Positions 15,342-57,108 of a stretch of 64,000 nucleotides of DNA are shown here, piece by piece (within the stretch, counting starts at the first letter, position 1; every line of letters begins with the position of its first letter). Source of the DNA: Mucilaginibacter cryoferens (GTDB lineage: Bacteria; Bacteroidota; Bacteroidia; Sphingobacteriales; Sphingobacteriaceae); assembly GCF_014205845.1 (NCBI RefSeq), contig NZ_JACHCR010000019.1, positions 80,347-144,346 of the forward strand, given 5' to 3'. Made by a program: the position numbers and the translations under genes. The notes under the pieces were generated by a model, which was given only the letters and a program-made list of their open reading frames with translations, was not told the origin of the DNA and did not search any database.

Positions 15342-15428
15342 GGTGAGGTGCCTGAGAGGCCGAAAGGATCAGTTTGCTAAACTGACGTACGGGAAACTGT
15401 ACCGAGGGTTCGAATCCCTCCCTCACCG
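15342..15428 (+). tRNA. tRNA-Ser (anticodon GCU)
   Basis: The 87-base gene folds with acceptor GGTGAGG/CCTCACC. It has a D-arm (GCCTGAGAGGC), an anticodon arm with GCT at 15376-15378 flanked by TCAGT/ACTGA, a long type-II variable arm (TACGGGAAACTGTA), a T-arm GAGGG/CCCTC around TTCGAAT, and discriminator G. CCA is not encoded. The anticodon reads AGC/AGU serine codons. Its 3' end is the integration target of the downstream island; the gene stays functional because the element supplies an identical 3' end. Confidence 0.97.
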
Positions 15429-15430
15429 CT
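15406..15430 (+). repeat. attL: left attachment site inside tRNA-Ser 3' end
   Basis: The 25 bases here match 57084-57108 at 23 positions; the exact shared core is TCCCTCCCTCACCGCT (15415-15430). The core covers the T-arm 3' strand, acceptor 3' strand, discriminator and two bases beyond. A tyrosine integrase gene begins 250 bases downstream, the usual arrangement for a tRNA-targeting element. Confidence 0.85.
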
Positions 15431-15452
15431 GATTGAATAGTCGAAAAACGCC

Positions 15453-15487
15453 AAAAGCCTGTAAATCATATATTTACAGGCTTTTTT
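15453..15487 (+). terminator. Rho-independent terminator after tRNA-Ser
   Basis: A perfect 14-bp stem (AAAAGCCTGTAAAT with ATTTACAGGCTTTT) has a 5-base loop and ends in TTTTTT. It lies 25 bases beyond the tRNA. It is on the island side of attL, so it was probably brought in by the element; the right attachment site is followed by a different terminator. Confidence 0.88.
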
Positions 15488-15544
15488 GTTGCCATGAGTT
15501 AACCAAAACATACACGAATTCGCAAAGAAAATGAGCGACATCCA

Positions 15545-15576
15545 TGGCGTCTTTTTTTCATCAAAAAAAGACGCCA
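15545..15576. repeat. Perfect 14-bp hairpin upstream of the integrase gene
   Basis: TGGCGTCTTTTTTT (15545-15558) and its complement (15563-15576) surround a 4-base loop, about 100 bases before the integrase start. With its T/A-rich stem it may be a bidirectional terminator, an attenuator in the integrase leader, or an integrase arm-site structure. Confidence 0.6.
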
Positions 15577-15678
15577 CGTAAATGGTATAATAATCTGATT
15601 TACAATATGTTCGATCATTAAACATCTTGACTTTTTGCCGCTGCATTTCGATATTTATTCACTTAAAAATCTATCGTT

Positions 15679-16932
15679 ATGTTAGAAAAAAGTTTAGGCT
15701 TAATGTTTTTTTTAAAACAGCCAAGAAATTATGATGGGGGTGAAATGTATATCTACCTCAAGATTACTGTAGACGGTGTTTCCAAAGACCTTTCTATTAA
15801 ACGTTCCTGGCTTCCTTCCAGATGGAATTCAAAAGGAAACCGTGCCATCGGCAATAAAGAAGATGCAAAAGTACTTAACGAGTTCCTTGATGTTATGCAA
15901 AATAAAGCATACGATGCCAGGAAGCATTTGATCGACCGGGGTAAAGTGGTAACAGCTTTAGCAATAGTAGAATTGTTATCCGGGATTAATGAGCGGAAAT
16001 GGATGCTGCTTTTGTTGTTCGAAGGGCATAACAAAGACTTAAAGAAAATGATTGGTAAAGGTGTCGCTAAAGGGACTTATACCAATTTTAACACATCCTA
16101 TAAACACACCTGCAAATTTATTAAGGTCATCTATAAAGTTGATGATATCAATATCCGCTCACTGGACTTGGAATTCATTAAGAAGCTATATAACTGGTAT
16201 CGTACAGATTTAGAACTTAATCATAATTCAGCATTGAAAAACATTGCCAATATGAAAAAGATTGTATTGGATTGCGTGGATAACGGATGGCTGGTAGGGG
16301 ACCCATTCGCCAAGTTTGAGATGACAAGAGAAGATGTTGATACAATATATCTGGACAAAGAGGAAATTCAGCGAATTACATCAAAAAGTATCCAGAATGA
16401 ACGACTGTCTCGGGTAAGGGATTTGTTCGTTTTTTGCTGTTTTACCGGTCTTTCTTTCATCGATGTAAAGCAGTTAAAGCGTTCCGAAGTAACCCTGGCC
16501 CATAACAGTGAACTCAGAATTTATAAGAACAGGCAAAAAACAGGAACACCGTCAGCGATTCCACTATTGCCAATAGCGCTTCTGATTTTAAAAAAATACC
16601 AGGATGATGAGATGTGTTTAGCAAAAGACATGCTATTACCAGTACTCAGCAATCAGAAGTATAATTCATATTTAAAAGAGATTGCCGATACCTGTAACGT
16701 TAATAAGGAGCTTACCTCAAAGATGGCTAGGAACTCGTTTGCGACTACGGTGACCTTAGCAAACAATGTTCCGATGGAAACCATCAGTAAAATGATGGGA
16801 CATAAGAGCCTAAAGCAAACACAGCATTACGCTAAAGTATTGGCTGTCAAAGTCACCGAGGATATGGTTACGCTGAAGAAAACGTTAGCAAAAAAGAAAT
16901 TTATTCCTGAACAGCGGATTATGTTAGGTTAG
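15679..16932 (+). CDS. int: Tyrosine-type site-specific integrase
   Basis: The 417-residue protein has the Bacteroidota integrase layout: an N-terminal arm-binding domain (about 1-95), a SAM-like core-binding domain (about 100-225), and the catalytic domain (about 235-400). Visible catalytic features are CFTGLSFIDVKQL (the box that often lacks the first Arg in this group), RQKTGTPSAIPL (Lys strand), KMARNSFATT, GHKSLKQTQHYAKV (His and nucleophile Tyr). The usual HxxR box reads KMAR, so the conserved His is replaced by Lys. It is the first gene after tRNA-Ser and presumably integrates the element at the 3' end of that gene. Confidence 0.92.
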   Translation: MLEKSLGLMFFLKQPRNYDGGEMYIYLKITVDGVSKDLSIKRSWLPSRWNSKGNRAIGNKEDAKVLNEFLDVMQNKAYDARKHLIDRGKVVTALAIVELLSGINERKWMLLLLFEGHNKDLKKMIGKGVAKGTYTNFNTSYKHTCKFIKVIYKVDDINIRSLDLEFIKKLYNWYRTDLELNHNSALKNIANMKKIVLDCVDNGWLVGDPFAKFEMTREDVDTIYLDKEEIQRITSKSIQNERLSRVRDLFVFCCFTGLSFIDVKQLKRSEVTLAHNSELRIYKNRQKTGTPSAIPLLPIALLILKKYQDDEMCLAKDMLLPVLSNQKYNSYLKEIADTCNVNKELTSKMARNSFATTVTLANNVPMETISKMMGHKSLKQTQHYAKVLAVKVTEDMVTLKKTLAKKKFIPEQRIMLG

Positions 16933-16971
16933 ACAATATAGTCGCATCACCCATTAATTAAAGTTTGAGTT

Positions 16972-17511
16972 ATGGAAAATAACAATGAAGAAATGATGGT
17001 TCCTGATGAAGTCATTTCCAATAAAATCTATTATATCAGAGGTCAAAAAGTTATGCTTGACGAAGATCTCGCACAGCTTTACAATGTTACTACTGGCAAT
17101 TTAAACAAAGCTGTAGCACGCAACATCAAGCGGTTTCCTGATGACTTTATGTTTCGGTTAACGGATGAAGAATTTAAAAACTTGCTATTCCAAAATGGAA
17201 TAGCAAGTTGGGGTGGCAGAAGACAAGCGCCCAATGCGTTCACTGAGGACGGGCTGGCCATGTTGTCCGGTATACTTTCAAGTGATAGAGCAATACAGGT
17301 TAATATTCAGATTATGAGGGTTTTTACCCGGTTGTGGCGCATGTTTATTGACAATACAGAGTTGCGCCTTGAAATTGAGAAAATAAAGGCAAAATTGGAC
17401 AACCAGGATAAAAACATGGAAATCGTTTTCCGGTATCTAGACGAATTAATCCAAACTAAAGCAACAAGCCAAACACGAAAAGGTATAGGCTACAAACCAA
17501 ATGAATTTTGA
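16972..17511 (+). CDS. ORF6N domain-containing DNA-binding protein
   Basis: The 179-residue protein carries an ORF6N (KilA-N related) domain over about residues 13-100: IYYIRGQKVMLDEDLAQLY, VARNIKRFPDDFMFRLTDEE, and NAFTEDGLAMLSGILSSDRA. A C-terminal coiled coil follows (about 125-165). ORF6N proteins are frequent accessory genes of Bacteroidota integrative elements and phages; the exact role is unknown, though DNA binding is inferred. It starts 39 bases after the integrase stop and is probably co-transcribed with it. Confidence 0.88.
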   Translation: MENNNEEMMVPDEVISNKIYYIRGQKVMLDEDLAQLYNVTTGNLNKAVARNIKRFPDDFMFRLTDEEFKNLLFQNGIASWGGRRQAPNAFTEDGLAMLSGILSSDRAIQVNIQIMRVFTRLWRMFIDNTELRLEIEKIKAKLDNQDKNMEIVFRYLDELIQTKATSQTRKGIGYKPNEF

Positions 17512-17699: not shown

Positions 17700-18332
17700 T
17701 TAGAGATGTTTATCATTTGCTCGTTGAAAAATTATCCACGCAGCCGAATACAATTTTACGAGGTGGTCATATACCTTTATGACACCACCCGGCAACACTA
17801 ATTCGTTTATTGTATCCTCTGACAAAGCAGCTTTTAGCCACTTCCAAAGATAATCCCTGAATTGTGCCGGGTTAATTTCCTTAAACGCACATTCGATGAC
17901 CAGATAGGGGTTTAATAGTTCATCTCTCTCAAGGTTGTCAGGATACCAATTCCAGTTTCTTTTCTCTTCAGCCAGTTGTTCTTCAGATATGTGGTCACTA
18001 ACAAACGCCTGGTTCTGATCTTTCAGCAGCAAAATAAACAGTGATTCCAGTAACCTTACGTTTAACTCATAATAAAAAAGTAAATCACACGGCATAAAGT
18101 CTTTGTCCTCAGAATATGCACAGTTTGCCGCATGATGTTGCCATCTTTTCAATCTTTCCAGATAACGCTCAATATCGCTTATGTCGAAGAAATCCGTTAA
18201 GACTTTCATTGAATCTCCCACTTCTGATTGGCGAAGAAATTTGGGATAGTGGTCCCAGGGAGCATAAACACCACAATACATAACCAAATCATTAAACCGG
18301 CCTGCATTGACCAGTGATACAAAGTTGGCCAC
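17700..18332 (-). CDS. Unknown mobile-element protein, divergent from an XRE regulator
   Basis: The 210-residue protein is rich in aromatic and acidic residues and predicted helical, with no signal peptide or transmembrane segment. Notable stretches are MYCGVYAPWDHYPKFLR, CDLLFYYELNVRLLESLF and FKEINPAQFRDYLWKWLKAALS. I do not recognise a domain. It is transcribed away from the XRE gene at 18483 with a 150-base shared upstream region, so it may be controlled by that regulator. Cargo function such as defence is possible but unsupported. Confidence 0.6.
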   Translation of the reverse strand: MANFVSLVNAGRFNDLVMYCGVYAPWDHYPKFLRQSEVGDSMKVLTDFFDISDIERYLERLKRWQHHAANCAYSEDKDFMPCDLLFYYELNVRLLESLFILLLKDQNQAFVSDHISEEQLAEEKRNWNWYPDNLERDELLNPYLVIECAFKEINPAQFRDYLWKWLKAALSEDTINELVLPGGVIKVYDHLVKLYSAAWIIFQRANDKHL

Positions 18333-18482: not shown

Positions 18483-18884
18483 ATGAGCGCTACCACTGAA
18501 AAACCAAATCAAATACATCAGGGCCGTAACATTAAACGTTTCCGTGAAATGCTCGGCCTAAAACAAGAGGCTTTAGCCTATGCACTTGGTGAGGAATGGA
18601 GTCAGAAAAGGGTGTCCCTTTTGGAAGCAAAAGAGACTATCGAAGAAGATGTTCTTATACAGGTAGCGGAGATTTTGAAAGTGCCTGTAGATGCAATTAA
18701 GAATTTAGATGATAATAAAGCTGTAAATATTATTGCCAATACATTCAATGATGAGGCTGTTGCATACAGCCAGTACTATAAATGTACTATCAACCCTATG
18801 GAAAAATGGCTTGAATCATTAGAAGAAATAAAGCAGCTTCACAATGAGATCAAAAAACTTTACGAACGCCTTCTAGATAAATAA
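18483..18884 (+). CDS. XRE-family helix-turn-helix regulator
   Basis: The 133-residue protein has an N-terminal HTH domain: QGRNIKRFREMLGLKQEALAYAL (helices 1-2), GEEWSQKRVSLLEAKETIE (recognition helix region) and VLIQVAEILKVPVDAIK. A short acidic, coiled-coil-like C-terminus follows (about 95-130). It is preceded by an AT-rich region between divergent genes. It probably regulates the divergent 17700-18332 gene or element functions. Confidence 0.85.
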   Translation: MSATTEKPNQIHQGRNIKRFREMLGLKQEALAYALGEEWSQKRVSLLEAKETIEEDVLIQVAEILKVPVDAIKNLDDNKAVNIIANTFNDEAVAYSQYYKCTINPMEKWLESLEEIKQLHNEIKKLYERLLDK

Positions 18885-19283: not shown

Positions 19284-20258
19284 TCAACGCGACACCTGTT
19301 GGCCCTGGGATTTTTTCTTTCTTTTTTTCTTTTTCTCTATCTCGCTTTCCGGGACAATATTAGCACCTCCTGTATATATAGGTTCCAGCATCACTTCCAA
19401 AAAGCTTGACGCCGTCTTACCTGCTGCGGACAGCATCCCCGCCGTCGTCGTAAATAAGCCTTCTGCAACTCCCTGGGCCAGTTCCTTAGCCACCGATTTG
19501 CTTTCATAATTCTGCGAAGCGCCTTCGGCCAACACACCTAACTGTTCCCGCTGCGATAGTTCGCCATTCTTCTGAACATTAGCATATGCCATCGTATCTT
19601 TAAGCTGCCTGTCAAATCCGAACAAGCTGTCGAAAAGAGATTCCCCGCTTTGTTTGAAAGCTACCCGGTCAAACTGACCCATCTTTTTAGAATGCTCCGC
19701 ATTCTTTCCCCTTGAGGTATTCATCGGGCTAAGCTTGATCTTATTGGTTATATCCTTACGGCTTACAATAACCTGCACATGCATCTGTTCGCCTTCTTTA
19801 CGTTCGCCCCGTTGTTTCAGGCCTTGTTTTACTTCCGGGTCATTGTAGCTGTAATAACGGTAGTTGTCCAGCTTGGCGAACCACAACAGGTCTTCGTTAC
19901 TGTTAACACCATCCCGGTTAAAGTTTTTTGCGTAGGCATCCATCACCCTGACCGCAAAGCCTTTCATTTGTTCTTTAGCGCCATCTTCGCCATATTGTTC
20001 TTTCAGAAACCTGATCTCTTTCTGGCTCGGGCTGATATTAACCAGGAAAAACTTAGCATCGTCTTTACCCAGCTTGGCGACATTACCATCTATGGTGCGC
20101 ATCACCTCATAAGGCTCGACCCTGATCTCCTGACCATTGAACCAGTATTCAGGTTCCTGTTTATGGTCGAGCCGGTTTTCTTTTTCCAGGTAATGTACCA
20201 GTCCCGCGCTGCTACCTTTGTTCGCCGCTTCTTTACTGTCCGTAATATTGATAAACAT
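19284..20258 (-). CDS. MobB/BtgB-like mobilization protein (DUF5712 family)
   Basis: The 324-residue protein opens MFINITDSKEAANKGSSAGL, then LVHYLEKENR and YWFNGQEIRVEPYEV. It contains a relaxase-like His-bearing strand GEQMHVQVIVSRKD (HxQ-hydrophobic pattern) around residue 160. The C-terminal third includes a Gly/Ala-rich segment and a strongly basic tail (KKKKRKKK). This matches the DUF5712/BtgB group of Bacteroides mobilizable transposons, which nicks or binds oriT with its BfmA/BtgA partner. It follows the bfmA-like gene by 39 bases. Confidence 0.8.
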   Translation of the reverse strand: MFINITDSKEAANKGSSAGLVHYLEKENRLDHKQEPEYWFNGQEIRVEPYEVMRTIDGNVAKLGKDDAKFFLVNISPSQKEIRFLKEQYGEDGAKEQMKGFAVRVMDAYAKNFNRDGVNSNEDLLWFAKLDNYRYYSYNDPEVKQGLKQRGERKEGEQMHVQVIVSRKDITNKIKLSPMNTSRGKNAEHSKKMGQFDRVAFKQSGESLFDSLFGFDRQLKDTMAYANVQKNGELSQREQLGVLAEGASQNYESKSVAKELAQGVAEGLFTTTAGMLSAAGKTASSFLEVMLEPIYTGGANIVPESEIEKKKKRKKKSQGQQVSR

Positions 20259-20297: not shown

Positions 20298-20855
20298 TTA
20301 AAGCAAACTGACCTGCGATCTGGTAACAGTGATGAGCTCATCTTTCTCCCGGCCCGATGTCATCATCCCAAAAGCTTCCCTTGATTTGATATAACCGTCA
20401 AGGATGAACAGGAACTGTTTTTTCAGGTGTTCCTTACTCTTTTGGTTTTTCGAGATCGTATCCATCAATGTATCTATTCCAATTAATTTCTGAGCCAGAG
20501 CATGCTGATTATTCAGCAGGTCAGTATTCGCCTTGAGAATTTGCGTATTAAAACGCTCGATGATCTTGGCCTGTGATACCGATACCCTGTCCATTTCTGT
20601 TTTGATCGGAATGAGCAGCATGTTCTCCTGGCTTTTGATAAAACCGATATACTGCTGGTGGTTTTTCATCAGGGCATTTTTCAATAATTCATCATTCAGG
20701 TCCAGGGGATCTTTCTTGCTTTTATAAAAGTAATCGACCATCTGGATAAACGTCTGCCGCTTTGTCCTGCCCAGTTTAAGGGCGATCTTTTCAAACTTCT
20801 GATCTACCGTAACCGGGTATCTCACTGATCTCACATTGATATCTTCCATACTCAT
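20298..20855 (-). CDS. BfmA/BtgA-family mobilization protein
   Basis: The 185-residue protein starts MSMEDINVRSVRYPVTVDQK and has RTKRQTFIQMVDYFYKSKKDP, a ribbon-helix-helix-like DNA-binding start, followed by long coiled-coil helices (about 60-160). This is the pattern of BfmA/BtgA accessory mobilization proteins, which bind oriT and help the relaxase. The region directly upstream (20881-21236) is rich in palindromes, supporting an oriT there. It is co-directional with the BtgB-like gene. Confidence 0.8.
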   Translation of the reverse strand: MSMEDINVRSVRYPVTVDQKFEKIALKLGRTKRQTFIQMVDYFYKSKKDPLDLNDELLKNALMKNHQQYIGFIKSQENMLLIPIKTEMDRVSVSQAKIIERFNTQILKANTDLLNNQHALAQKLIGIDTLMDTISKNQKSKEHLKKQFLFILDGYIKSREAFGMMTSGREKDELITVTRSQVSLL

Positions 20856-21236: not shown

Positions 21237-21554
21237 CTACACTTCCCAACCGGCAGGCCAGTAAACCTGGCTGCCGAGTTTGGGATGGTATGACGGCTCA
21301 TAGCGGATGTAACCATATTCATCGAGTTCTTTGATACACTTGTGATACGTTGCGATGGATGCGACCTTGGAAAACGCCATGAGCGTTTTCCGGGTCACAC
21401 TGAATGGACTTACAAAACCAGCCCGCTGCCAGCAAACAAACAAGCCCGTGAACAAACTTAGATGGGTTGGCAGCAGCCGGTTATCCTTCTCCATTCGCTT
21501 AACGAGGCTGGCATAACCAGCTAATTCTTTAACAATCTCCTTCTGCAACTTCAT
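21237..21554 (-). CDS. Small winged-helix-like element protein
   Basis: The 105-residue protein contains THLSLFTGLFVCWQRAGF, FSVTRKTLMAFSKVASIAT and YHKCIKELDEYGYIRYEPS. It looks like a winged helix: helices, then a wing ending GSQVYWPAG. Proteins of this kind accompany excisionase-like HTH genes in Bacteroidota mobile elements and may act in replication or regulation. Its ATG overlaps the stop of the upstream HTH gene by four bases, so the two are translationally coupled. Confidence 0.7.
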   Translation of the reverse strand: MKLQKEIVKELAGYASLVKRMEKDNRLLPTHLSLFTGLFVCWQRAGFVSPFSVTRKTLMAFSKVASIATYHKCIKELDEYGYIRYEPSYHPKLGSQVYWPAGWEV

Positions 21555-21817
21555 TTGCCTTCACCCTCCAGGATCTTGTTGATGTCTTCCAGCTTGTAGT
21601 ACATAATGCTGCCTACTTTGGTAAAACGTAGTGTACCTTTAATCCTTAAGTTTTGAAGTGTGCCCGGTGATATGCCCAATAGCTTTTTTACCTCCACGCT
21701 CTTCAGCCATTTTTTAGATTGTCCCTGTCCAGGCTGCATCAGTTGTTTGATCTCCTTCAATAACTCCCCTTTAAACTCCCTTAAATCTTCCTTGGTGATC
21801 AATTCGATTGCTGTCAT
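21551..21817 (-). CDS. Helix-turn-helix (excisionase/MerR-like) protein
   Basis: From the preferred start MTAIELITKEDLREFK the product has 88 residues; the frame is open 12 codons further upstream but that part is Lys/Ser-rich and less likely. A helical N-terminus is followed by KWLKSVEVKKLLGISPGTLQ and FTKVGSIMYYKLEDINKIL, the helix-turn-helix 17 (excisionase-type) pattern. Such proteins act as recombination directionality factors or regulators in Bacteroides elements. It overlaps the next gene by four bases. Confidence 0.82.
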   Translation of the reverse strand: MTAIELITKEDLREFKGELLKEIKQLMQPGQGQSKKWLKSVEVKKLLGISPGTLQNLRIKGTLRFTKVGSIMYYKLEDINKILEGEGK

Positions 21818-22081
21818 AGTTGATATTTTTTTTCGTGAATAATTCTTGCCCAAATTTGAGTAAGCCCTATTTAATTAATTGGGGACTTTAATAGGGTGAC
21901 CCCAATTTTCTGTTTATTACATCTTGTTTAGTTTCGCATGGCGGGGACCTCCTTTCTTATAAACCTGTTCAGCGGAACAATAAAATGCCAGCCACTGAAT
22001 GCAATGGTTCAAAACTGAGGGCGAAAACAGCAAAATGAATGACCATTGGAGGCGTTTGGTCACGGATGAAAAGACAAAAGT

Positions 22082-22840
22082 CTATTTCTTAGGCTTTTGA
22101 ATGATTTTGAAGAGTTTGTCCTTTTCGGTGATGATCGTGTATTTCGGTGATGGGTTATCCTTATCGGCAGGAAAATAATTATGGGCTGTATCGATGGATA
22201 TGGGTTTATCGCCGTGTTGGAAATTCTTGGCGATCAGTTTATACCACGGGCTTTCTGTCTGGCTATTGACGAGCTTGTTATCATTGGGCAGGATCAATGT
22301 TCTGATCTGATTAACCAAATCTATAAATACCGGCAGGCCTCCTTTACTGATCACGATCTTTTCACCGGCATCGTATTTCGCGGCTTCTTTCAACTGGCTT
22401 TCCAGCTCTTTTATTCTTTCCTCTAATTGATCTATACGTTTATTTTTATCACTGATGACCGATTCTAAAGGTTGTGTTTTATGCCAGCAATCAATTGTTT
22501 TAAGGAACGCCAGGAACGCTTCTAGTTTTTCTGTATATATCAGTCCTTTGGCATAGGCGCTGACGAATGGCTTGAGACCTTTATAGTATCCGATCCTTTC
22601 GGTTACGATATGATAAACATGATTGAAAAACGCCTCTTCCTGTCCAGCGTTCCCTTCCAGGTAGTGATTCAATTGGCGATTGTAAAACGGGGCGTATTCA
22701 TCTTCCTTAATTTTATAGATCTTATCCACAAAGAAGTTCAGACCGAAAATCCTGTCCGTAAATATTAACCAGCCAATATCATAACGATGAGGAAATATCT
22801 CAAAGCGGCCACGAAATTTGAAGTAAGTATCTGAAGGCAT
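22082..22840 (-). CDS. Unknown mobile-element protein with central coiled coil
   Basis: The 252-residue soluble protein has an aromatic-rich N-terminal domain (about 1-120: FRGRFEIFPHRYDIGWLIF, FFNHVYHIVTERIGYYKGLK). A coiled coil follows (about 128-155: KNKRIDQLEERIKELESQLK). The C-terminal domain includes LILPNDNKLVNSQTESPWYKLIAKNF and SIDTAHNYFPADKD. The C-terminal part recalls RteC-like proteins of Bacteroides transposons, but the match is weak. It is the last backbone gene before the tRNA-like scar at 22.9 kb. Confidence 0.65.
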   Translation of the reverse strand: MPSDTYFKFRGRFEIFPHRYDIGWLIFTDRIFGLNFFVDKIYKIKEDEYAPFYNRQLNHYLEGNAGQEEAFFNHVYHIVTERIGYYKGLKPFVSAYAKGLIYTEKLEAFLAFLKTIDCWHKTQPLESVISDKNKRIDQLEERIKELESQLKEAAKYDAGEKIVISKGGLPVFIDLVNQIRTLILPNDNKLVNSQTESPWYKLIAKNFQHGDKPISIDTAHNYFPADKDNPSPKYTIITEKDKLFKIIQKPKK

Positions 22841-24894: not shown

Positions 24895-25773
24895 AAAAAA
24901 GTTGGTTAGTTGGCGATATTTAAATCGGCCGTTATTAATATACGGGTTAATTGTTTGTAAAAGAGTTAGATAAAAAAGAGCATATGTGTCATTACCTTTG
25001 AGGCCGTATAAATATTGGCTAAAGGCAGTTATCAGGATAACTGCCTTTAGCCAACTGGGCGTTAAAAAAAATAATAATAAGGCAGTTGCCATTCCGCTTA
25101 ACGCGGAGTTTAACATCAGTTTCATTTTTCGATAAGATAAAACGGGCCTGATCCGGTTTATTTGTTTAATTGGTTAAACCTTGTTTTCAGGTGCGGAATT
25201 ACAATTAATAAAAACATGCAATTAAAATGAACAAAAGACAACCGATGGAACAACGGGCATATTTTAGTTAGCAATTGTTGAATGGGTAGCAGGTTTATTA
25301 ATTGATTAGTAAAACTACAGATGAGATAATTTAATGAAGGGATGTAAAAGTTAGAAAATAGGGAGGTAAATGTTAATTTTTAAGAAAAAATTGTGGGTTC
25401 TGTGGGTGTTTTGCATAAACAGCTGTCTTATCTGAAGGAGAATTTATAAAATGGTGTAGAGAATCTGTGTTAACTACTTAATAAACTGTAAATAAAAGTG
25501 TTTCGTCGCTTTTTTTTAACTGGATGAGCCGGATAGCCTCCTAAATAACAACCTGTAACAAGCTTTATTTCACTGTAAGTTCAGGCATGGCCCGTACCAT
25601 AGTATCGGCAACCCGTTTGCTTCAGAGTAGGCTATTTATTTTCCGCTGATCAAATGAAGGAATTGCCACTTTTATCTCTTTAATTACGAATTTATCTTAC
25701 TTTTATGCTATCTAAGGTGTACTGGATTGCCAAGGGCCAGGCTCCTGATTTCGAAGATCTCAACTAAATTTTA
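24895..25773. promoter_or_regulatory. Divergent intergenic region with an 18-bp perfect hairpin
   Basis: This 879-base AT-rich region separates the divergent GH5 and HTCS genes and must hold both promoters. The clearest structure is at 25015-25054, where TTGGCTAAAGGCAGTTAT faces its exact complement across a 4-base loop, 120 bases upstream of the GH5 start. It may be a leader hairpin or a remnant of an inserted repeat. I cannot identify the HTCS binding site. No further gene is seen. Confidence 0.45.
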
Positions 25774-33987: not shown

Positions 33988-34018
33988 TAAAACGATTATC
34001 GATTTAAAATATATGTTT

Positions 34019-42455: not shown

Positions 42456-42480
42456 TAACGCTGACAATTCTGTTTTCAAC

Positions 42481-45106: not shown

Positions 45107-45200
45107 ACTCATTTCAGAAGCCGTGTGAAGTTTATGGAAAATCTGTGAACCGGACATACAGCTATCTGAAATACGATAAACTCAGAAATAGTTTTCAGTG

Positions 45201-46792: not shown

Positions 46793-46931
46793 GAAAATGA
46801 CCTGTTGGCCTTGTAAAATAAGTGTAAAAAACACAATAAATAATATTAAATTTCATGATGAAAAAGTTATTACCCATTTCAAGTTTGTGCCTGTTCCTGT
46901 TCACAGCAACAAGTTTGAAAGCACAAAACCC
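46793..46931 (+). repeat. Duplicated leader/signal-peptide segment (copy 2)
   Basis: This is the GH51 copy of the leader described at 45201-45335. Here the ATGATG start is intact. The enzymes downstream are unrelated, so the shared segment is a module of promoter, ribosome-binding region and signal peptide. Confidence 0.8.
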
Positions 46932-49016: not shown

Positions 49017-50591
49017 ATGAGAAATGCGATTTACAGGTTATGGACAACGGCCTTAATTACCACGCTTATAGCGCCGTGTTTATATGCACAAAAAGCCACT
49101 AATCCTATTATTTACGCGGATGTACCAGACATATCAATAGAACGTGCAGGCAATAGCTATTACATGAGCAGCACAACGATGCACATGAGTCCCGGTGTGC
49201 CGATTATGAAGTCGAACGACCTGGTGAACTGGAAGACGGTGGGTTATGCATATGATACTTTAGGAAACGTTGATGCATTAAATCTCACAAATGGAAAAAA
49301 TGCATATGGGGAGGGTTCGTGGGCAAGTTCTATTCGTTTCCATAATGGCACCTATTATGTAAGCACATTTTCTGCAAATACCGGCAAAACGCACATTTAC
49401 AGTACTAAAAATATCGAAAAAGGCCCATGGAAAGCCAGGTCATTTACCCCCGACCTGGGTGATCACTCCTTGTTTTTTGATGATGACGGAAAGGTTTATA
49501 TGATTAGCGGGAGCGGAGATTTAAGATTAGTTGAATTAAAGGACGATCTTTCCGGTATAAAGCCTGGCGGAACGGACCAGGTTATCATTAAAAAAGCAAA
49601 CGTGCCTTCGGGCGGTACCGGCCTCGGTCCGGAGGGCTCTCAGCTGTTTAAGATAAACAGCAAATATTATCTTTTCAATATTACATGGCCACCTGGCCAC
49701 GTACGCACTGTTATCATACACCGGGCAGATAAAATCACCGGCCCGTATGAAGGACGAATTGGCCTCCAGGATCTGGGTGTGGCGCAAGGTGGATTGGTTG
49801 AAGCGCCAAATGGAGCCTGGTATTCTTATTTGTTCCGTGATTATGGCTCGGTGGGCCGTATTCCCTATTTGGTTCCTGTAAAGTGGGAGGATGGATGGCC
49901 CGTTTTGGGCAACCACGGCAAAGTGACCGATACACTCGACCTGCCGGCCGGTAATGGTTTGATCCCGGGAATTGTTGCCTCAGACGAGTTTGCCCGTAAA
50001 AAAGGTGAACGTGCATTACCACTGGTTTGGCAATGGAACCATAACCCGGATAATAGCCTGTGGTCTGTTACCGCGCGGAAAGGGTATTTACGACTCACCA
50101 CCGGCAGGATCGACACCAATTTCCTGATGGCTCGAAATTCATTGACACAACGCACTATCGGCCCGGTATGCTCCGGGATAGTTTCGCTCGACATTTCTAA
50201 AATGAAAGATGGTGATTTTGCAGGTTTGGGCCTTCTGCAAAAAAATTACGGATTGGCTGGTGTCAAAATAACGGGGGGCAGCAAAGCCATCGTAATGATC
50301 AATGCAAGCACCGGAAAACCTGTAGAAGCACAGAAAATTCCCTTGGACCAAAAGATAGTATACTTTAAGGCGGAATGCAATTTTACGAACAGAAAAGACG
50401 TGGCAGATTTTTTTTATAGCCTGGACGGGAAAACGTGGATGCCATTAGGCACGCAATTAAAAATGGCCTATACCTTTCCCCATTTCATGGGCTATCGTTT
50501 TGCTTTGTTTAATTATGCTACAAAAAATATAGGGGGCGCGGCCGACTTTGACTTTTTTCATATAACAGATTCCATTTCCCCGGAAAAATAA
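49017..50591 (+). CDS. GH43 beta-xylosidase/arabinofuranosidase with C-terminal beta-sandwich (GH43_12-like)
   Basis: The 524-residue exported enzyme (signal cleavage after CLYAQ) has a GH43 propeller (about 25-310). Its motifs are IIYADVPDISIERAGNSYYM (base Asp), PDLGDHSLFFDDDGK and GLGPEGSQLFKINSKYYLF (acid Glu). It is followed by the XynB-type C-terminal domain (about 320-520: FARKKGERALPLVWQWNHNP, DFAGLGLLQKNYG). This architecture is that of the arabinofuranosidases of the B. ovatus xyloglucan PUL and of many xylosidases. It starts 44 bases after the GH51 stop, so the two are likely co-transcribed. Confidence 0.92.
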   Translation: MRNAIYRLWTTALITTLIAPCLYAQKATNPIIYADVPDISIERAGNSYYMSSTTMHMSPGVPIMKSNDLVNWKTVGYAYDTLGNVDALNLTNGKNAYGEGSWASSIRFHNGTYYVSTFSANTGKTHIYSTKNIEKGPWKARSFTPDLGDHSLFFDDDGKVYMISGSGDLRLVELKDDLSGIKPGGTDQVIIKKANVPSGGTGLGPEGSQLFKINSKYYLFNITWPPGHVRTVIIHRADKITGPYEGRIGLQDLGVAQGGLVEAPNGAWYSYLFRDYGSVGRIPYLVPVKWEDGWPVLGNHGKVTDTLDLPAGNGLIPGIVASDEFARKKGERALPLVWQWNHNPDNSLWSVTARKGYLRLTTGRIDTNFLMARNSLTQRTIGPVCSGIVSLDISKMKDGDFAGLGLLQKNYGLAGVKITGGSKAIVMINASTGKPVEAQKIPLDQKIVYFKAECNFTNRKDVADFFYSLDGKTWMPLGTQLKMAYTFPHFMGYRFALFNYATKNIGGAADFDFFHITDSISPEK

Positions 50592-50873: not shown

Positions 50874-52235
50874 ATGACCACAACTTGGAAAATTTTAACT
50901 TTTTTAATAGTATTTAGTTTTTGTACATCTGTAAAGGCGCAAAACACGAGTGTTGCGCTAAGCCCCCCCATGGGATGGAACAGTTACAATTGTTACGGTA
51001 TGACAGTTCATGAGGATGAGGTAAAAGCAAATGCTGATTACGTTGCGCAAAACCTGAAGGCGCATGGCTGGCAATATATAGTGGTGGATTTCTTATGGTC
51101 CTTTGATAGCCGAAGTGGCGACCCGTTTCAAAAAAGACTTAAAGATGGTTCATATAGCCCCTGGCTGGCAATGGATCAATGGGGGCGTCTAACACCTGAT
51201 ACAATTAAGTTTCCGTCGGCATTGGGCGGTAAGGGGTTTAAGCCATTGGCTAAGTATGTCCATTCGCTGGGGTTGAAATTTGGTATTCATGTAATGCGTG
51301 GCATCCCACGCCAGGCAGTATGGGCAAAATCACTCGTAATGGGCGCTAATGGCATAACTGCTGATATGATAGCCGATACTAATTCAAAATGCGCCTGGAA
51401 CAACCACATGTTTGGCCTGAATATGGCTAAACCCGGTGCGCAGGAATACCTGAATTCAATATTGAAGTTATATGCCGCTTGGGGCGTTGATTTTATTAAG
51501 GTTGATGACTTATCGGCTCCTTATAGCATTGCGGAGGTTGAGGGCTATCGGAAGGCAATTGATAATTGCGGCAGGGCCATCGTGTTCAGTACATCACCGG
51601 GGGCTACGCCTGTTTATAGAGCTGATAACGTAAAACAAAATGCCAATATGTGGCGGGTGGCCAATGACTTTTGGGACGAGTGGCCCGCAGTATTGCAAAT
51701 GTTTAATTATGGCAAACAATGGGAGGGCGTTGGCGGGCCCGGCCATTGGCCCGATTGTGATATGATACAGATAGGCAAGTTGTCAAAACGGGGCCCTGTA
51801 GGTAACGAACGTTATAGCCGTTTTACAAAAGACGAGGAGTATTCGCATATGACATTTTGGACCATCTTCCGCTCCCCGTTAATTTTGGGCGGCAACCTGC
51901 CCGAAAACAGGGAACAGGAATTGAAACTGTTTACAAACGATGAGGTGATAGCCGTTAACCAACATGGGACCGAACCGCGCCAGTTATACAAAACTAATGA
52001 TGCAATGGTTTGGTATTCGCACGCGCCCAATAGTAAGGATATTTATGTCGCTTTATTCAACCTGGCGGCACAGTCGCAGGATGTGGATGTAAACTTTGCC
52101 CAACTTGGCCTGAATGGAAAGGTAGCCGTTCGGGACCTTTGGGAAAAGCAAGATGTAGGTACCTTTAAAGACGGATATAAAAAAACAATCAATACACACG
52201 GGGCCGCTTTGTTAAAACTATCGTTGCTTAATTAG
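50874..52235 (+). CDS. GH27-family alpha-galactosidase (or beta-L-arabinopyranosidase)
   Basis: The 453-residue protein has a signal peptide (cleavage after VKAQ). Its GH27 barrel shows SPPMGWNSYNCYG, YIVVDFLWSF and KFGIHVMRGIPRQAVW; the nucleophile Asp lies in DFIKVDDLS (about 211), and the acid/base candidate is in ANDFWDEWP (about 265-268). PGHWPDCDMIQIG is also typical, and a C-terminal beta domain follows. Typical GH27 has KYDNC at the nucleophile; KVDDL here marks a divergent clade whose sugar could be galactose or arabinopyranose. It starts 11 bases after the GH5 leftover, so that fragment may occupy its leader. Confidence 0.9.
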   Translation: MTTTWKILTFLIVFSFCTSVKAQNTSVALSPPMGWNSYNCYGMTVHEDEVKANADYVAQNLKAHGWQYIVVDFLWSFDSRSGDPFQKRLKDGSYSPWLAMDQWGRLTPDTIKFPSALGGKGFKPLAKYVHSLGLKFGIHVMRGIPRQAVWAKSLVMGANGITADMIADTNSKCAWNNHMFGLNMAKPGAQEYLNSILKLYAAWGVDFIKVDDLSAPYSIAEVEGYRKAIDNCGRAIVFSTSPGATPVYRADNVKQNANMWRVANDFWDEWPAVLQMFNYGKQWEGVGGPGHWPDCDMIQIGKLSKRGPVGNERYSRFTKDEEYSHMTFWTIFRSPLILGGNLPENREQELKLFTNDEVIAVNQHGTEPRQLYKTNDAMVWYSHAPNSKDIYVALFNLAAQSQDVDVNFAQLGLNGKVAVRDLWEKQDVGTFKDGYKKTINTHGAALLKLSLLN

Positions 52236-52251: not shown

Positions 52252-54204
52252 ATGAAAATAAACAAACGGATATTATTAGTGCTTTTTACACTATTCCATT
52301 TTTTTCAAACGTCCGGTTATGCCCAGGTAACTTTGCCAAAAGTGTTTGGCGATAATATGGTTTTGCAAAGAGGCATAAAAATTCCTGTTTGGGGTAACGC
52401 AACTCCGGGTTCTTTGATTGTTGCAACGCTTGGTAAAGTAAGTACAAAAGCAAAAACTGATAAAGACGGCAAATGGATGTTGCATTTTTCGAAGTTTAAG
52501 GCAGGTGGCCCCTATGATCTCAAAATTTCTGAATCAGGAAATCCCGACTTCGCAATAAAACTAACAGGAATTCTTATCGGGGATGTATGGCTTGCTTCGG
52601 GCCAATCTAATATGGAATGGCAGGTACAGCAGGCGCGGGATGCTCCGAATGAAATTGCCAAAGCAGATTTTCCCAAAATCCGCTTTCTTTTGGTAGAACA
52701 CGATATTAAACTTATTCCTCAATCTGATTTTTTAGCGGGTAAGTGGAAACTATGCGACACAAATAATGTAAAGCAGTTCTCTGCCGTGGCCTATTATTTT
52801 GCCCGCAAAATACATAAAGAGCAAAACGTTCCAATCGGGATCATTCAAAGTACCTGGGGTGGAACGCCGGTACAGGCATGGACAAGCCGGGAAATGCAGC
52901 TTACATCGTCTGCTACCAGGGCAAAAATGCTTGCAGTTGATACCCTGACTCAAAACAATGTTGTAAAAGATAGCCTGGATATGATACGTTTTTGGGACAT
53001 CGTTTATCATCCACAGAATAATACTGATAAAACTGTTCCCTTACCGGATTATGACGATTCTGGTTGGACGGCGGTCGAGATGCCCCGGCTGATTAAAGAT
53101 TTTGGAATTGGAAAATATGAAGGGATGATTTGGTTACGCAAAAAAATTGTGTTACCCCCATCTTTTGCAGGAAAAGAGTTAGTACTGAATATTGGTCACC
53201 CTGAAATGAATTACTCACTTTATTTTAACGGCGCCGAAATATGCAAAACAATTTGGAATAGCAATTCAAAGCAATCCTATACCATTCCGGCCGACCTGGT
53301 TAAAAACGGGGAAAATACCATTGGTATAAGAATGGCTATGCTGTGGGGCGGCGGCGGATTGAACCCTCCGGCCGAAAATATTTATATTACTGATGGTTAT
53401 TCTAAGATCTCTTTAGCAGGGAAATGGTTGTATAAAATAAATGTTGAACCGGCCATTCCTAAAATCCACAATTACCAAAATTACCCCGCAGTACTGTTTA
53501 ATGCCATGATTAATCCGTTAATTCCTTTTGGGGTCAAAGGGTTTATTTGGTACCAGGGAGAGGCGAATGATACGGAGGCTTACCGCTATAGGGAATTATT
53601 TCCTATGCTGATCAATGACTGGCGAAAACATTGGCATCAGGGTAATCTTCCTTTTTTATATGTTCAGTTGGCAAACTTCAAAAAAGAAGATCCGCTTCCT
53701 GCTGAAAGCGAATGGGCTGAATTGAGAGAGGCGCAAACACTAACACTGTCACAACCCAACACAGGCATGGCTTGTATAATAGATATCGGCGATGCCGGCA
53801 GTATTCATCCTACAAATAAGCAGGAGGTAGGACGCAGGTTGGCGCTGATAGCGGAAAAAAAAGCCTATGGGGAAAATGTTATTGCCTCGGGGCCAATGTA
53901 TAAAAGCTTCGTTGTCAAAGGGACAGATATAATTATAAGTTTCACCGGGACCGGTTTGGAACTTGCAACCCGCGATGCAGCTTCACTAAAAGGATTTGTG
54001 ATTGCCGGAGATGATAAAAAATTCTACTGGGCATCGGCCAGGATCGAAGGAGATAAGGTGATAGTTAGTTCGGATAAGGTAAATATACCCGTAGCCGTAC
54101 GTTACGCCTGGGCCGACAACCCCGTTTGTAACCTTGTTAACAAAGAAGGGCTGCCGGCCGCGCCCTTCAGAACAGATGAATGGAAGGGAATTACCCAAAA
54201 GTGA
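52252..54204 (+). CDS. SASA-family carbohydrate O-acetylesterase
   Basis: The 650-residue exported esterase (signal cleavage near SGYAQ) has an N-terminal beta domain, then the SGNH/SASA catalytic module. The nucleophile Ser is in LASGQSNMEWQ (about 119), the GVKGFIWYQGEAND block is in the middle, and the catalytic Asp/His segment is DAGSIHPTNKQEVG. A galactose-binding-like beta insert (about 255-390) interrupts the module, as in sialate-O-acetylesterase relatives. In plant-polysaccharide PULs such enzymes strip acetyl groups from hemicellulose. It starts 17 bases after the GH27 gene. Confidence 0.9.
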   Translation: MKINKRILLVLFTLFHFFQTSGYAQVTLPKVFGDNMVLQRGIKIPVWGNATPGSLIVATLGKVSTKAKTDKDGKWMLHFSKFKAGGPYDLKISESGNPDFAIKLTGILIGDVWLASGQSNMEWQVQQARDAPNEIAKADFPKIRFLLVEHDIKLIPQSDFLAGKWKLCDTNNVKQFSAVAYYFARKIHKEQNVPIGIIQSTWGGTPVQAWTSREMQLTSSATRAKMLAVDTLTQNNVVKDSLDMIRFWDIVYHPQNNTDKTVPLPDYDDSGWTAVEMPRLIKDFGIGKYEGMIWLRKKIVLPPSFAGKELVLNIGHPEMNYSLYFNGAEICKTIWNSNSKQSYTIPADLVKNGENTIGIRMAMLWGGGGLNPPAENIYITDGYSKISLAGKWLYKINVEPAIPKIHNYQNYPAVLFNAMINPLIPFGVKGFIWYQGEANDTEAYRYRELFPMLINDWRKHWHQGNLPFLYVQLANFKKEDPLPAESEWAELREAQTLTLSQPNTGMACIIDIGDAGSIHPTNKQEVGRRLALIAEKKAYGENVIASGPMYKSFVVKGTDIIISFTGTGLELATRDAASLKGFVIAGDDKKFYWASARIEGDKVIVSSDKVNIPVAVRYAWADNPVCNLVNKEGLPAAPFRTDEWKGITQK

Positions 54205-54331: not shown

Positions 54332-56257
54332 ATGAAGAAAAAAACAATCCTTAGAACTATCCTAATCGCCGGCCATTTTATTGCCGTTATGCTCATTTGC
54401 AAGCCGGCTTTTTCACAATATATCGGCCAGTATCAAATAGAAATGACCAAACGGTCCGAAATCACTGCAAAGGCACAAAGCTTTAATTTGCAGGATGTAA
54501 GGTTATTAGACAGTCGTTTCAAACAAAACATGGAACGCGATGCCAAATGGATGTTGAGCATTAGTAACGCAAGCTTGTTGCATACCTGGCGGTTAAATGC
54601 CGGTATCGCATCTAATGCCAAACCCCTGGGTGGATGGGAATCACCAAATTGCGAGTTACGTGGGCATATTATGGGTCATATACTTTCCGGGCTTGCGTTG
54701 ATGTATGCTTCAACAGGAGAAATAGTTTACAAACAAAAAGCCGATTCGTTGGTGACAGCACTTGCGGAATGCCAGCAGGTTTTGGATGAAGGGGGTTACC
54801 TAAGTGCTTTCCCCAAACAATTTATCAACCGGGCAATTAAGGGTGAGTGGGTGTGGGCTCCCTGGTATACGATCCACAAAGTGATGGCAGGGCTAACCGA
54901 TATGTATCTGTATTCAGGTAACAAGCAGGCTTTGGACATTGCAGAAAAGATGAGTGGATGGGCTTTTCATAAACTTGAGCCTTTAACTCCTCAACAATTG
55001 GCCACAATGGAAAAAACTGAATTTGGCGGAATGAGTGAAGTTGCCTATAATTTGTATGCCATAACAGGAAACAAGAACGACAAAAGATTAGCAGAACTTT
55101 TTTATCATCACGCTATTCTGGACCCTTTAGCAAATAAGGAAGATAAACTCGCGGGGGTTCACGCTAATACCCAAATCCCTAAAATAATAGGTGCGGCGCG
55201 CGGATATGAACTTACACACGATGACACGCTAAAAACGATTGCTGAATTTTTTTGGCAGACGGTTATCGATCACCATACTTTTGCAACTGGCGGAAACAGC
55301 GATCAGGAATTTTTCTTTACGCCCGATCAAATCTCGAAACATATAACAGCCACCACCACTGAAACCTGCAACACCTACAATATGCTAAAACTGACACGTC
55401 ACTTGTTTACCTGGACAGCAGACGTAAAGTATGCAGATTATTACGAGCGTGCTTTATATAACCATATATTGCCATCTCAGGAAGCGGAGACTGGTATGGT
55501 TACATATTTACAATCAGTAAAGCCTGGTTTGTTCAAGACCTATAGTTCACACGACGACTCCTTTTGGTGTTGTGTTGGCACAAGTTTTGAAAATCATGCT
55601 AAATATGCTGAAAGTATTTATTACCATACGGATAATGGCATTTATGTTAACCTGTTTATCCCATCCGAATTGAATTGGGGTGAGAAAGGCTTTAAAATTG
55701 TTCAACAAACCCGCTATCCCGAAGAAAGTGTAACTAATCTCACCGTAAAGGAAGCGCCGTCGCGTATCCCGTTTTCGTTATATATCCGATATCCGCATTG
55801 GGCAACGTCTGGTGCGAAGATTACAATAAATGGTAAAGTGGTTAAAATATCAGAAAAACCCGGTAGTTATATTGAGTTAAAAAGAGTATGGAAAACCGGT
55901 GATGAAGTGGCTGTTAGTTTTCCTATGTCGTTGCGATTGATCCCTGCAAACGATAATGCAAAGGTGGCCGCAATCGCTTACGGCCCATTATTGCTGGCTG
56001 GAGATATGGGCACCGGCGGAATAAACCCGCCTGCACCTTTTGCCAGGGATCAGCTGGAATTTGTAAAATATAATATCCCTGAAGATGTTATCAGTTCGCT
56101 AACTGTAAAAAAACGGAAATTAACTGACTGGCTAACACCATTGGCGGGGAAGCAGCTTACATTCGAAACGAAAGATGTAGCGGGCAGGCCCATTACTCTG
56201 ATTCCGTATTACCAGATTGATAAACAGCGTTATGTACTCTATTGGAATTTGAAATGA
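54332..56257 (+). CDS. GH127/GH146-type beta-L-arabinofuranosidase (DUF1680)
   Basis: The 641-residue protein has a signal peptide (cleavage near KPAFSQ) and the DUF1680 (alpha/alpha)6 barrel. Visible motifs are LRGHIMGHILSGLAL, WAPWYTIHKVMAGL, FATGGNSDQEFF, TTTETCNTYNMLKLTR and FWCCVGTSFENHAKY. Cys 413/414 include the zinc-held catalytic nucleophile of GH127, with Glu in the TETC motif. The C-terminal beta-sandwich ends with QRYVLYWNLK. These enzymes remove beta-L-arabinofuranose, a sugar found in extensins, RG-II and the T side chain of solanaceous xyloglucan. It is the last gene of the PUL. Confidence 0.92.
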   Translation: MKKKTILRTILIAGHFIAVMLICKPAFSQYIGQYQIEMTKRSEITAKAQSFNLQDVRLLDSRFKQNMERDAKWMLSISNASLLHTWRLNAGIASNAKPLGGWESPNCELRGHIMGHILSGLALMYASTGEIVYKQKADSLVTALAECQQVLDEGGYLSAFPKQFINRAIKGEWVWAPWYTIHKVMAGLTDMYLYSGNKQALDIAEKMSGWAFHKLEPLTPQQLATMEKTEFGGMSEVAYNLYAITGNKNDKRLAELFYHHAILDPLANKEDKLAGVHANTQIPKIIGAARGYELTHDDTLKTIAEFFWQTVIDHHTFATGGNSDQEFFFTPDQISKHITATTTETCNTYNMLKLTRHLFTWTADVKYADYYERALYNHILPSQEAETGMVTYLQSVKPGLFKTYSSHDDSFWCCVGTSFENHAKYAESIYYHTDNGIYVNLFIPSELNWGEKGFKIVQQTRYPEESVTNLTVKEAPSRIPFSLYIRYPHWATSGAKITINGKVVKISEKPGSYIELKRVWKTGDEVAVSFPMSLRLIPANDNAKVAAIAYGPLLLAGDMGTGGINPPAPFARDQLEFVKYNIPEDVISSLTVKKRKLTDWLTPLAGKQLTFETKDVAGRPITLIPYYQIDKQRYVLYWNLK

Positions 56258-56274
56258 CCGAACTACAATTATGA

Positions 56275-56386
56275 AATGATCGGCCAGCTCTATCCTATGG
56301 AGCAATTGCTCCATAGCATCCACCCTGCTTAATGTATTACGGGTACCATACATTGCCGAAGCAAAACTGTCTATTCCTATTTCCAT
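56275..56386 (-). pseudogene. 5' fragment of an LLM-class flavin oxidoreductase gene
   Basis: The minus-strand start MEIGIDSFASAMYGTRNTLS and then RVDAMEQLLHRIELADH is the typical N-terminus of luciferase-like (LLM) oxidoreductases. After about 37 codons similarity ends and the sequence becomes the antisense of the GH127 3' flank. The PUL end therefore joined or cut this gene at about 56270. Confidence 0.75.
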
Positions 56387-56423
56387 GATAGTAAAATTAT
56401 TTAATTAGAATAGCGGTTTAAAA

Positions 56424-56453
56424 AAATGGTTGCTTTTTTAGGAGCAACCATTT
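56424..56453 (-). terminator. Terminator behind the isochorismatase-like fragment
   Basis: AAATGGTTGCT (56424-56434) pairs with AGCAACCATTT (56443-56453); on the minus strand a run of T follows the stem. Confidence 0.7.
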
Positions 56454-56502
56454 CTTATTGGCTTGGTATTTTAATGTATCATTAGGATACAGCGGCCACG
56501 TA

Positions 56503-56691
56503 TTATTTTTCTGATTTTGTAACTTCCTGGGCTTTATAGTATTGTTCAATAATAGCCTGGAAATTAGGCACCATTTCTGCCAGCAGTTTGGCAAAATCTC
56601 CGGCTTCTTTCCTTCTCCAGTCTTTCATCAATTCAGGAAGCACGGCGCCACAGGTTACCGGGATAGCACCTGCCTGGGTTAAACGGAGCAT
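56503..56691 (-). pseudogene. 3' fragment of an isochorismatase-like hydrolase gene
   Basis: Sixty-two codons (MLRLTQAGAIPVTCGAVLPE, then LMKDWRRKEAGDFAKLLAEM) match the C-terminus of YcaC-like isochorismatase-family hydrolases; the catalytic N-terminal part is missing. It is followed by its own terminator, then by the LLM fragment. Confidence 0.65.
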
Positions 56692-57083
56692 GTACTTACG
56701 CGTTGAACTTTAACTTGGAAACCCGGCCAATAAGTGAATATACCAACGGTGCCCTTGAATTGGGAATCAAGCTGCTATTATTAAAAAAACAGAAGAGGGA
56801 TGGCTTAAACCAAGATGTGTTTACGTTAGCTACCAAGGGGTTCCCGAGAGTTTCTTGATCTCATTGACAGCTAAACGGCCCTCGGCAAATGTCGAGTTAT
56901 TGAAAATACGGATTATACTGGACTAAGTTGCAGTCTCTAAAATTATAATCTCTCAACTTGCTGGTTTTTTGAAAATAGTGTATCTTTAGTTAAGATTTGC
57001 AGAGGTAATAAAAAGAGCGGCATCTGTGGCGACTGATTATCTCATGGTTGTTAAATAGCTACAAATCAACAGTATAATAGGTT
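56692..57083. other. Gene-poor right end of the island
   Basis: No intact gene is visible. Short coding-like stretches on the plus strand near 56710-56860 (e.g. NLETRPISEYTNGALELGIK) cannot be assigned. The remainder up to the right attachment site is AT-rich. Confidence 0.5.
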
Positions 57084-57108
57084 GGGTTCTATTCCCTCCC
57101 TCACCGCT
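57084..57108 (+). repeat. attR: right attachment site (tRNA-Ser 3'-end copy)
   Basis: GGGTTC, two mismatches in three bases, then TCCCTCCCTCACCGCT matches the 3' end of tRNA-Ser. It has no tRNA 5' part, so it is the displaced original 3' end. A terminator follows at 57118-57156, presumably the original terminator of the tRNA gene. Confidence 0.85.

Follow-up and report, generated by a model that had tools for sequence, protein, structure and literature searches.

What is the DNA that begins at the end of a serine tRNA gene in Mucilaginibacter cryoferens and ends, more than 40 kb later, at a copy of the tRNA 3′ end, and has it moved between species? We studied this in a window of 64,000 nucleotides (contig C19 of genome G000, 80347–144346), the end of which is the right end of the contig. 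The 41.7-kb segment 15406–57108 is very probably a Mucilaginibacter integrative and mobilizable element (IME), inserted in tRNA-Ser(GCU), which carries a hemicellulose polysaccharide utilization locus (PUL) and has spread between species. An island had been proposed here in a sequence-only reading, and that proposal holds and is strengthened by our results, with the displaced host terminator, the excised circle and the helper as parts that we infer.

Attachment sites and element ends

ARAGORN recognized a single tRNA in the window, tRNA-Ser(GCT) at 15342–15429. The repeat of its 3′ end noticed earlier was confirmed: GGGTTCGAATCCCTCCCTCACCGCT (15406–15430) and GGGTTCTATTCCCTCCCTCACCGCT (57084–57108) are identical at 23 of 25 positions, and their final 16 bases match exactly. 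In the whole 6.95-Mb genome there are exactly two copies of the 15-mer TCCCTCCCTCACCGC, on the same strand and 41,678 bases apart; a control search with the pattern read backwards gave no match in any genome row. To the right of each repeat copy lies a terminator-like hairpin, and the right-hand sequences of the two copies differ, as the claim of different terminators at the two ends had it. The ends comprise the following features.

15342–15429, forward: tRNA-Ser(GCU), integration target (ARAGORN)
15406–15430, forward: left attachment repeat (attL), exact 16-base core at 15415–15430 (repeat comparison, genome core search)
15453–15487, forward: terminator hairpin beside attL, element-borne (kept in related elements)
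15530–15577, forward: left-end repeats and hairpin, possible integrase arm sites (left-end alignment)
56937–57083, forward: right terminus of the element (block 56937–57108 is 91% identical to the right end in genome G077; score against G002)
57084–57108, forward: right attachment repeat (attR), exact core at 57093–57108 (repeat comparison, genome core search)
57119–57156, forward: terminator-like hairpin right of attR, belonging to the host or an older neighbour (sequence)

Related elements retain the left terminator in all 15 left ends aligned, a set without L132 and L140, and so it belongs to the element. The idea that the original tRNA terminator was displaced to the right end thus stands in its left half, whereas the right-hand hairpin is not demonstrable as the host's.

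Local alignment of right ends against that of the window gave scores of 231 for G077, 82 for G002 and 37 for G099, with maxima of 28, 34 and 26 in 500 shuffles each. The right ends of G071, G020 and G026 scored no higher than shuffles.

Repeats at both ends were also considered as proof of integrase binding sites and were rejected as too weak relative to shuffle maxima. The likeness of the left-end repeats to the right end is marginally above shuffles: the best own-end direct matches, out of 18 positions, reached 15 in the window, 16 in G077, 15 in G002 and 16 in G071, with shuffle maxima of 14, 15, 15 and 15.

Integration and mobilization genes

Pfam and curated family matches placed an integrase, mobilization genes and a regulator/SusCD/carbohydrate-active enzyme locus between the repeat copies, as had been read from the letters. 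The backbone genes lie at the left.

15679–16932, forward: tyrosine integrase, 417 aa (Pfam Arm-DNA-bind_5, SAM_5, Phage_integrase; 97% identical in G077 at the same site)
16972–17511, forward: ORF6N-domain protein (Pfam; PADLOC candidate PDC-S05; split in G077)
17700–18332, reverse: backbone protein, no family match (38% relative in the G002 element)
18483–18884, forward: helix-turn-helix (HTH) regulator (HTH_3; Pfam)
19284–20258, reverse: MobB-family relaxase, DUF5712 (NF041495, 260 bits, cut-off 200; PF18976)
20298–20855, reverse: BfmA/BtgA-family mobilization protein (NF041200, 40.7 bits, cut-off 24)
21237–21554, reverse: small open reading frame (ORF) in the mobilization cluster, 105 aa (ORF call; no PHROGs match)
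21551–21853, reverse: HTH_17 protein, excisionase-like (Pfam; TIGR01764 below cut-off; relatives in G002, G077 and G099)
22082–22840, reverse: conserved backbone protein, no Pfam match (81% in G077)

The integrase, presumably IntDOT/NBU-like by its domain make-up, keeps K287, R351, H375 and Y384 and has Ser259 at the expected Arg I position. At the box II position it carries Lys348. Tyrosine recombinases usually possess Arg I and the box II His, and IntDOT is not known to have Arg I either. Ser259 and Lys348 are the same in G077 and G002, and G016 has Ala and His in their places.

The AlphaFold model of the relaxase (mean pLDDT 71) had no PDB match with E < 0.001. Among its best 11 fold matches, all with E > 0.001, nine have relaxase titles, one is 4ht4, which we take to be a relaxase, and one is a lipoate ligase; the relaxase profile gave no match to the sequences of solved structures. 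In plasmid records, relatives of the relaxase occur in 120 and those of the integrase in 69, all below 60% identity.

No Tra protein, type IV secretion system or coupling protein was recognized by Pfam among the 25 island ORFs, a set without overlapping ORFs and ORFs shorter than 80 aa.

Two further MobB-type relaxase genes are present in the same genome, at C14:7345–8067 (80%) and C17:151145–151984 (63%), and perhaps mark other mobilizable elements. The ORF6N protein matches the PADLOC candidate defence family PDC-S05 with 203 bits.

The PUL cargo

The rest of the island carries a susC/susD pair, carbohydrate-active enzymes including many glycoside hydrolases (GH), and a regulator, all recognized by Pfam, and thus has the components by which a PUL is defined.

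23191–25125, reverse: GH5 with ricin-type lectin domain (Pfam; nearest solved chain 5oyc, 'Cellulase, putative, cel5D')
25774–29979, forward: hybrid two-component sensor/regulator (HTCS; Pfam)
30796–33987, forward: SusC-like TonB-dependent transporter (Pfam)
34013–35608, forward: SusD-like binding protein (Pfam)
35633–37144, forward: surface glycan-binding protein (SGBP) with SGBP_B xyloglucan-binding domain (PF18329)
37399–37950, forward: conserved PUL protein, 183 aa, no Pfam match (88% in G077)
38722–40194, forward: BACON-GH5, xyloglucanase-like (Pfam; nearest solved chains 'cel5D')
40354–42150, forward: BACON-GH43 (Pfam; nearest solved chain 3c7e, deposited as endo-1,4-beta-xylanase)
42403–42789, forward: PUL ORF, 128 aa, no Pfam match (81% in G077)
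42950–45106, forward: GH3 (Pfam)
45145–46617, forward: GH43-CBM6 (Pfam)
46855–48972, forward: alpha-L-arabinofuranosidase, ASD1 domain, GH51-type (Pfam)
49017–50591, forward: GH43 with GH43_C2 (Pfam)
50874–52235, forward: alpha-galactosidase (Melibiase_2; Pfam)
52252–54204, forward: SASA carbohydrate esterase (Pfam)
54332–56257, forward: GH127 beta-L-arabinofuranosidase (Pfam)

The hallmarks of a xyloglucan utilization locus are a GH5 endo-xyloglucanase, a xyloglucan-binding SGBP and side-chain enzymes that include a GH31 alpha-xylosidase. GH5 and SGBP_B_XBD are both found in the island, and the domains suggest that the cargo is a hemicellulose PUL of the xyloglucan type. Since Pfam revealed no GH31 alpha-xylosidase among the 25 island ORFs scanned, of the 'complete' locus claimed earlier the locus itself is confirmed and its completeness cannot be affirmed.

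Related elements in other genomes

The same element was found at the same tRNA in G077, with 97% identity in the integrase, 92% in the relaxase, 95% in BfmA and 90% in the HTH_17 protein. PUL identities there are 93% (HTCS), 83% (SusC), 73% (SusD), 43% (SGBP), 89% (GH5-ricin) and 89% (GH5), followed by 82% (GH43), 90% (GH3), 93% (GH51-type) and 94% (second GH43). The G077 element is closed by an att copy 53.4 kb from the tRNA. With blastn, the window matches it in the tRNA and integrase block, in backbone and PUL blocks and, last, in 56937–57108; homology of the two right ends stops at 57108, where the right repeat ends.

The contents have diverged. About 19 kb of additional cargo separates the backbone from the PUL in G077; a transposase, esterases and two GH3 are among the 8 of its ORFs that were scanned. 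The alpha-galactosidase, the esterase and GH127 of the window have no G077 counterpart at ≥40% identity, and GH43-CBM6 is present there as a fragment only.

The left end of the window also matches sequence beyond the right att copy of G077. This suggests that a second element is present behind that copy and that the tRNA may hold several elements in tandem. Behind the right att copy of G077 (L248–L251) there is an element-type left terminator, and in L137 (M. psychrotolerans) an integrase lies behind a degenerate att copy.

A relative without the PUL was found in G002 (M. robiniae). Its 24.9-kb element lies between exact 22-base repeats (it spans the contig end joined to the start, the contig being taken as circular), and its integrase, relaxase and BfmA are 78%, 80% and 79% identical to those of the window. 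It has no counterpart of the window's PUL genes at ≥38% identity. Such counterparts are absent from the G002, G071 and G099 elements alike. Among the matches listed, the repeat pairs of G108, G097, G146, G102, G150, G140, G071 and G099 enclose no SusD, and the 146-kb pair of G060 encloses one. For these reasons the element family does not appear to be PUL-specific.

A scan of named genomes gave 16 loci. In 12 the best-segment integrase identity is 61–87%, and tRNA-Ser(GCU) directly precedes 10 of these (L146 being a partial match); the remaining two are L137 and L132, which is cut by a contig end. The other four, with integrases at 36–45%, have a different core. The 15-base core itself is present in 116 of 149 genus genomes, and a same-strand pair on one contig occurs in at least 18, a number that includes one 172-base pair and the pair of G002 that spans its contig end; among the matches listed, the other spacings lie between 3.9 and 192 kb. 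Seven further loci carry the relaxase/BfmA pair. In five of them it is accompanied by an integrase at 44–47% identity, a fragment in one case, beside tRNA-Leu (four loci) or tRNA-Glu (one locus).

Divergence and probable transfer between species

If the island had descended together with its surroundings, its genes would be expected to differ from those of G077 as much as the neighbouring chromosomal genes do. At fourfold sites, all 11 chromosomal genes queried left of the tRNA differ by 0.421–0.612 (one of them is only 39% identical in protein and has 23 sites, and the two leftmost window ORFs are not included), whereas 13 of 14 island genes differ by 0.121–0.407. Values for the PUL are 0.201 for HTCS, 0.318 for SusC, 0.306 for SusD, 0.122 for the GH5 that follows and 0.314 for GH3. 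Eleven island ORFs fall outside this comparison: seven that G077 lacks or has only in broken form, and four short ORFs for which G077 does have a counterpart (20939, HTH_17, 37399 and 42403).

The lower divergence of the island implies that it is younger than the split of the two species, and the presence of the same element at the same place in a second species therefore makes movement between species probable. On these sequence data, backbone and PUL probably moved after the species separated. Vertical inheritance from their common ancestor, which would account for the same site and order in both, is very improbable, because 13 of the 14 island genes lie below every one of the 11 chromosomal values and G020, about equally close by its HD protein (93% versus 92%), holds a different island at the site. 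The earlier claim of a PUL on a mobilizable island without Tra genes gains from this divergence, from the MobB and BfmA matches, from the G077 element and from the PUL-less backbone of G002.

A second PUL lineage at the same tRNA

A PUL at the same place without the backbone would speak against the island. It occurs only as a different PUL, about 70% identical in HTCS, SusC and SusD, downstream of the same tRNA in G020, G072, G156 and G155. The island reading therefore stands, at a site with a longer PUL history. The enzymes of this second PUL are GH5, GH39, GH42, GH3, an alpha-L-fucosidase and GH2. In G020 exact repeats spaced 54.5 kb apart flank it, and an integrase of the element family is missing; in G155 it is 67 kb from the tRNA. 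The element-type terminator beside the tRNA is kept in G020 and G156, not in G072 or G155. The genome of the window also contains a copy of this PUL, on contig C18 (L263/L264). We considered C18 as a possible continuation of the contig that holds the window; no att copy or tRNA was found in the 150.9 of 153.9 kb read.

Of 36 SusC matches at ≥64% identity (at most 5 candidates scored per genome), 6, among them that of the window, are found no more than 75 kb downstream of a core, against an expectation of 0.42 (nominal P 3.4e-6). This enrichment is only indicative: both limits were set with the data in view, and the matches are not independent.

Fourfold divergence within the second lineage is uneven. 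Between G020 and G156 it is 0.067 for HTCS, 0.480 and 0.437 for SusC and SusD, and 0.13–0.33 for the downstream enzymes. G072 and the C18 copy behave alike (HTCS 0.126, SusC/SusD 0.484/0.442, enzymes 0.18–0.27), and between G020 and G072 the relation is reversed (HTCS 0.415, enzymes 0.33–0.42, SusC/SusD 0.171/0.223). From these comparisons, SusC/SusD, together with the SGBP (30796–37144 in the window), look like a recognition cassette repeatedly exchanged between related PULs.

We tentatively propose, as a possibility rather than an expectation, that tRNA-Ser(GCU) is an exchange site for Mucilaginibacter hemicellulose PULs, to which IMEs with one integrase family would have delivered at least two PUL lineages, with SusC/SusD/SGBP cassettes swapping by recombination independently of regulator and enzymes. 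If so, delivery and substrate recognition evolve as separate modules.

Contrary observations and alternative explanations

Several observations weigh against the proposed element and its transfer. The SGBP, the sole exception among the 14 island genes, is as diverged from G077 (0.522) as the chromosome. attR carries two mismatches to attL outside the exact core. GC content shows no contrast between the island and its surroundings. A search for a helper with CtnDOT_TraJ gave no match but is uninformative, the control genomes likewise giving none, and AAA_10 gave two matches, both below cut-off.

The right flank adds to these points. Compared with the other 148 genus genomes (2 candidates scored per genome), 57084–59250 had one weak match, of 102 bases at 74%, in G170. 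The flank encodes an HxlR regulator:

57271–57642, reverse: HxlR regulator, outside the element (Pfam)

In the tRNA-bearing regions of 31 relatives, each about 3 to 20 kb long, a single HxlR match came up, in G023, at 34% identity and a distance of 13.6 kb. The protein at 59277 is one of a multi-copy family, and none of the matches listed places it at tRNA-Ser. An uninterrupted tRNA-Ser followed by this flank, for which the sequence-only reading had proposed to look in relatives, was thus not found. Since the flank has no match in other genomes apart from the weak one in G170, right-flank synteny failed as a proof of the empty site and the pre-insertion site is not demonstrated.

The flank (57109–64000, with HxlR, a flavodoxin-fold protein and a 1283-aa protein) has a lower GC content of 0.38–0.39. 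It may be an older insertion itself.

An orthologous PUL also lies outside such an element in G087 and G155, its near end 8–10 kb from tRNA-His. In G155, 9 of 10 genes differ from the window by 0.107–0.258 at fourfold sites and the HD gene by 0.479 in 71 sites; the best match of GH5-ricin (0.443) is located in the second PUL of G155. In G087, where the figures are for PUL genes alone, 8 of 10 genes differ by 0.114–0.206, GH3 by 0.422 and GH5-ricin by 0.541. No integrase or relaxase relatives were detected in the 60 kb around these two PULs. The PUL has more than one home, and its movement need not always use the IME backbone.

Could the island be a domesticated one that is now immobile? The two differences in 25 positions between attR and attL would fit, as would G020 and G156, where an element-type left terminator stands by a PUL with no family integrase beside it (in G156 a 60-residue fragment lies 69 kb away). 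In the window, both integrase and relaxase have uninterrupted reading frames and are conserved, the core matches without a difference and fourfold divergence from G077 is low, so that we regard domestication as unlikely, though worth keeping in mind.

Alternatively, homologous recombination among resident PULs could have built the PUL in place, the element being a neighbour that encloses it by chance. Equally close PUL genes off the island in G155 and G087, as well as the susC/susD exchange within related PULs, point this way. Against it, the window and G077 agree in backbone order and in the two termini that enclose the PUL, which leaves on-site assembly rather improbable.

We also considered a decayed integrative and conjugative element (ICE) that lost its own Tra genes and kept integrase, relaxase and PUL. 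CTnDOT-like ICEs exist in Mucilaginibacter (PMC6316836), and the element-type left ends seen behind att copies in G077 and L137 point to tandem or composite elements. Nevertheless, no Tra family is present in the 25 window island ORFs or the 8 ORFs of the G077 extra cargo, and the relaxase/BfmA pair recurs in seven other loci in the manner of a mobilization module (Tra genes were not sought there). We consider decay of an ICE distinctly improbable.

Proposed model of movement

Under the preferred reading of a mobilizable element, the tyrosine integrase would recombine a short core sequence that the element and the 3′ end of tRNA-Ser(GCU) have in common. Integration would keep the tRNA complete on the left side and place a partial copy on the right, as the anatomy and the relatives show. 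Judging from their families, the MobB relaxase and the BfmA/BtgA-type accessory protein would nick a predicted oriT, and a co-resident conjugative element would export the putative excised circle. The PUL, by its domains, would give the recipient a sensor, a surface binding and uptake cassette and debranching enzymes. Backbone and PUL would have spread in this way between Mucilaginibacter species after their separation, in line with the divergence data.

Comparison with known systems

In the papers covered here, PUL carriage by mobile elements concerns gut Bacteroides. Titles and abstract openings on Mucilaginibacter PULs, horizontal transfer and ICEs mention no such IME, most subscription journals being outside this coverage. 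PULs for porphyran, agarose and lambda-carrageenan are described as mobile-DNA cargo, and most variable PUL regions as lacking mobile-DNA functions (PMC8845570); another study reports 47 SusC/SusD PULs on gut mobile genetic elements (PMC6907783). The island resembles these in having a PUL as mobile cargo. The gut elements, so far as described there, are parts of ICEs or mobilizable plasmids, whereas the island is an integrated mobilizable element with a land-plant hemicellulose PUL in Mucilaginibacter.

The nearest parallels in anatomy are NBU1 and NBU2. The integration site of NBU2 is a serine tRNA, at its 3′ end (PMC13188876), and canonical Bacteroidetes IMEs encode a relaxase and no coupling or pore protein, that of NBU1 and NBU2 being MobP (PMC5704250). 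The island shares with them a tyrosine integrase, a relaxase and the lack of a transfer pore, and with NBU2 the tRNA-Ser target. It differs in having MobB/DUF5712 and BfmA/BtgA instead of MobP. It is also larger, carries a PUL and resides in another genus; the NBU2 integrase was outside the comparison.

The CTnDOT-like ICEs of M. rubeus and M. kameinonensis (PMC6316836) share with the island the genus, IntDOT-related integrases and adaptive cargo, and differ in encoding a mating pore and carrying heavy-metal resistance.

Integration into tRNA-Ser, as in NBU2, and PULs on mobile elements were both already known, and it is well supported that the island joins them. It makes one tRNA gene a recurrent landing site for PUL loci. 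It offers both element ends, a second species that has the element with contents that have diverged, and a PUL-less backbone relative; with these in hand, the transfer of land-plant polysaccharide degradation from one Mucilaginibacter species to another becomes directly testable.

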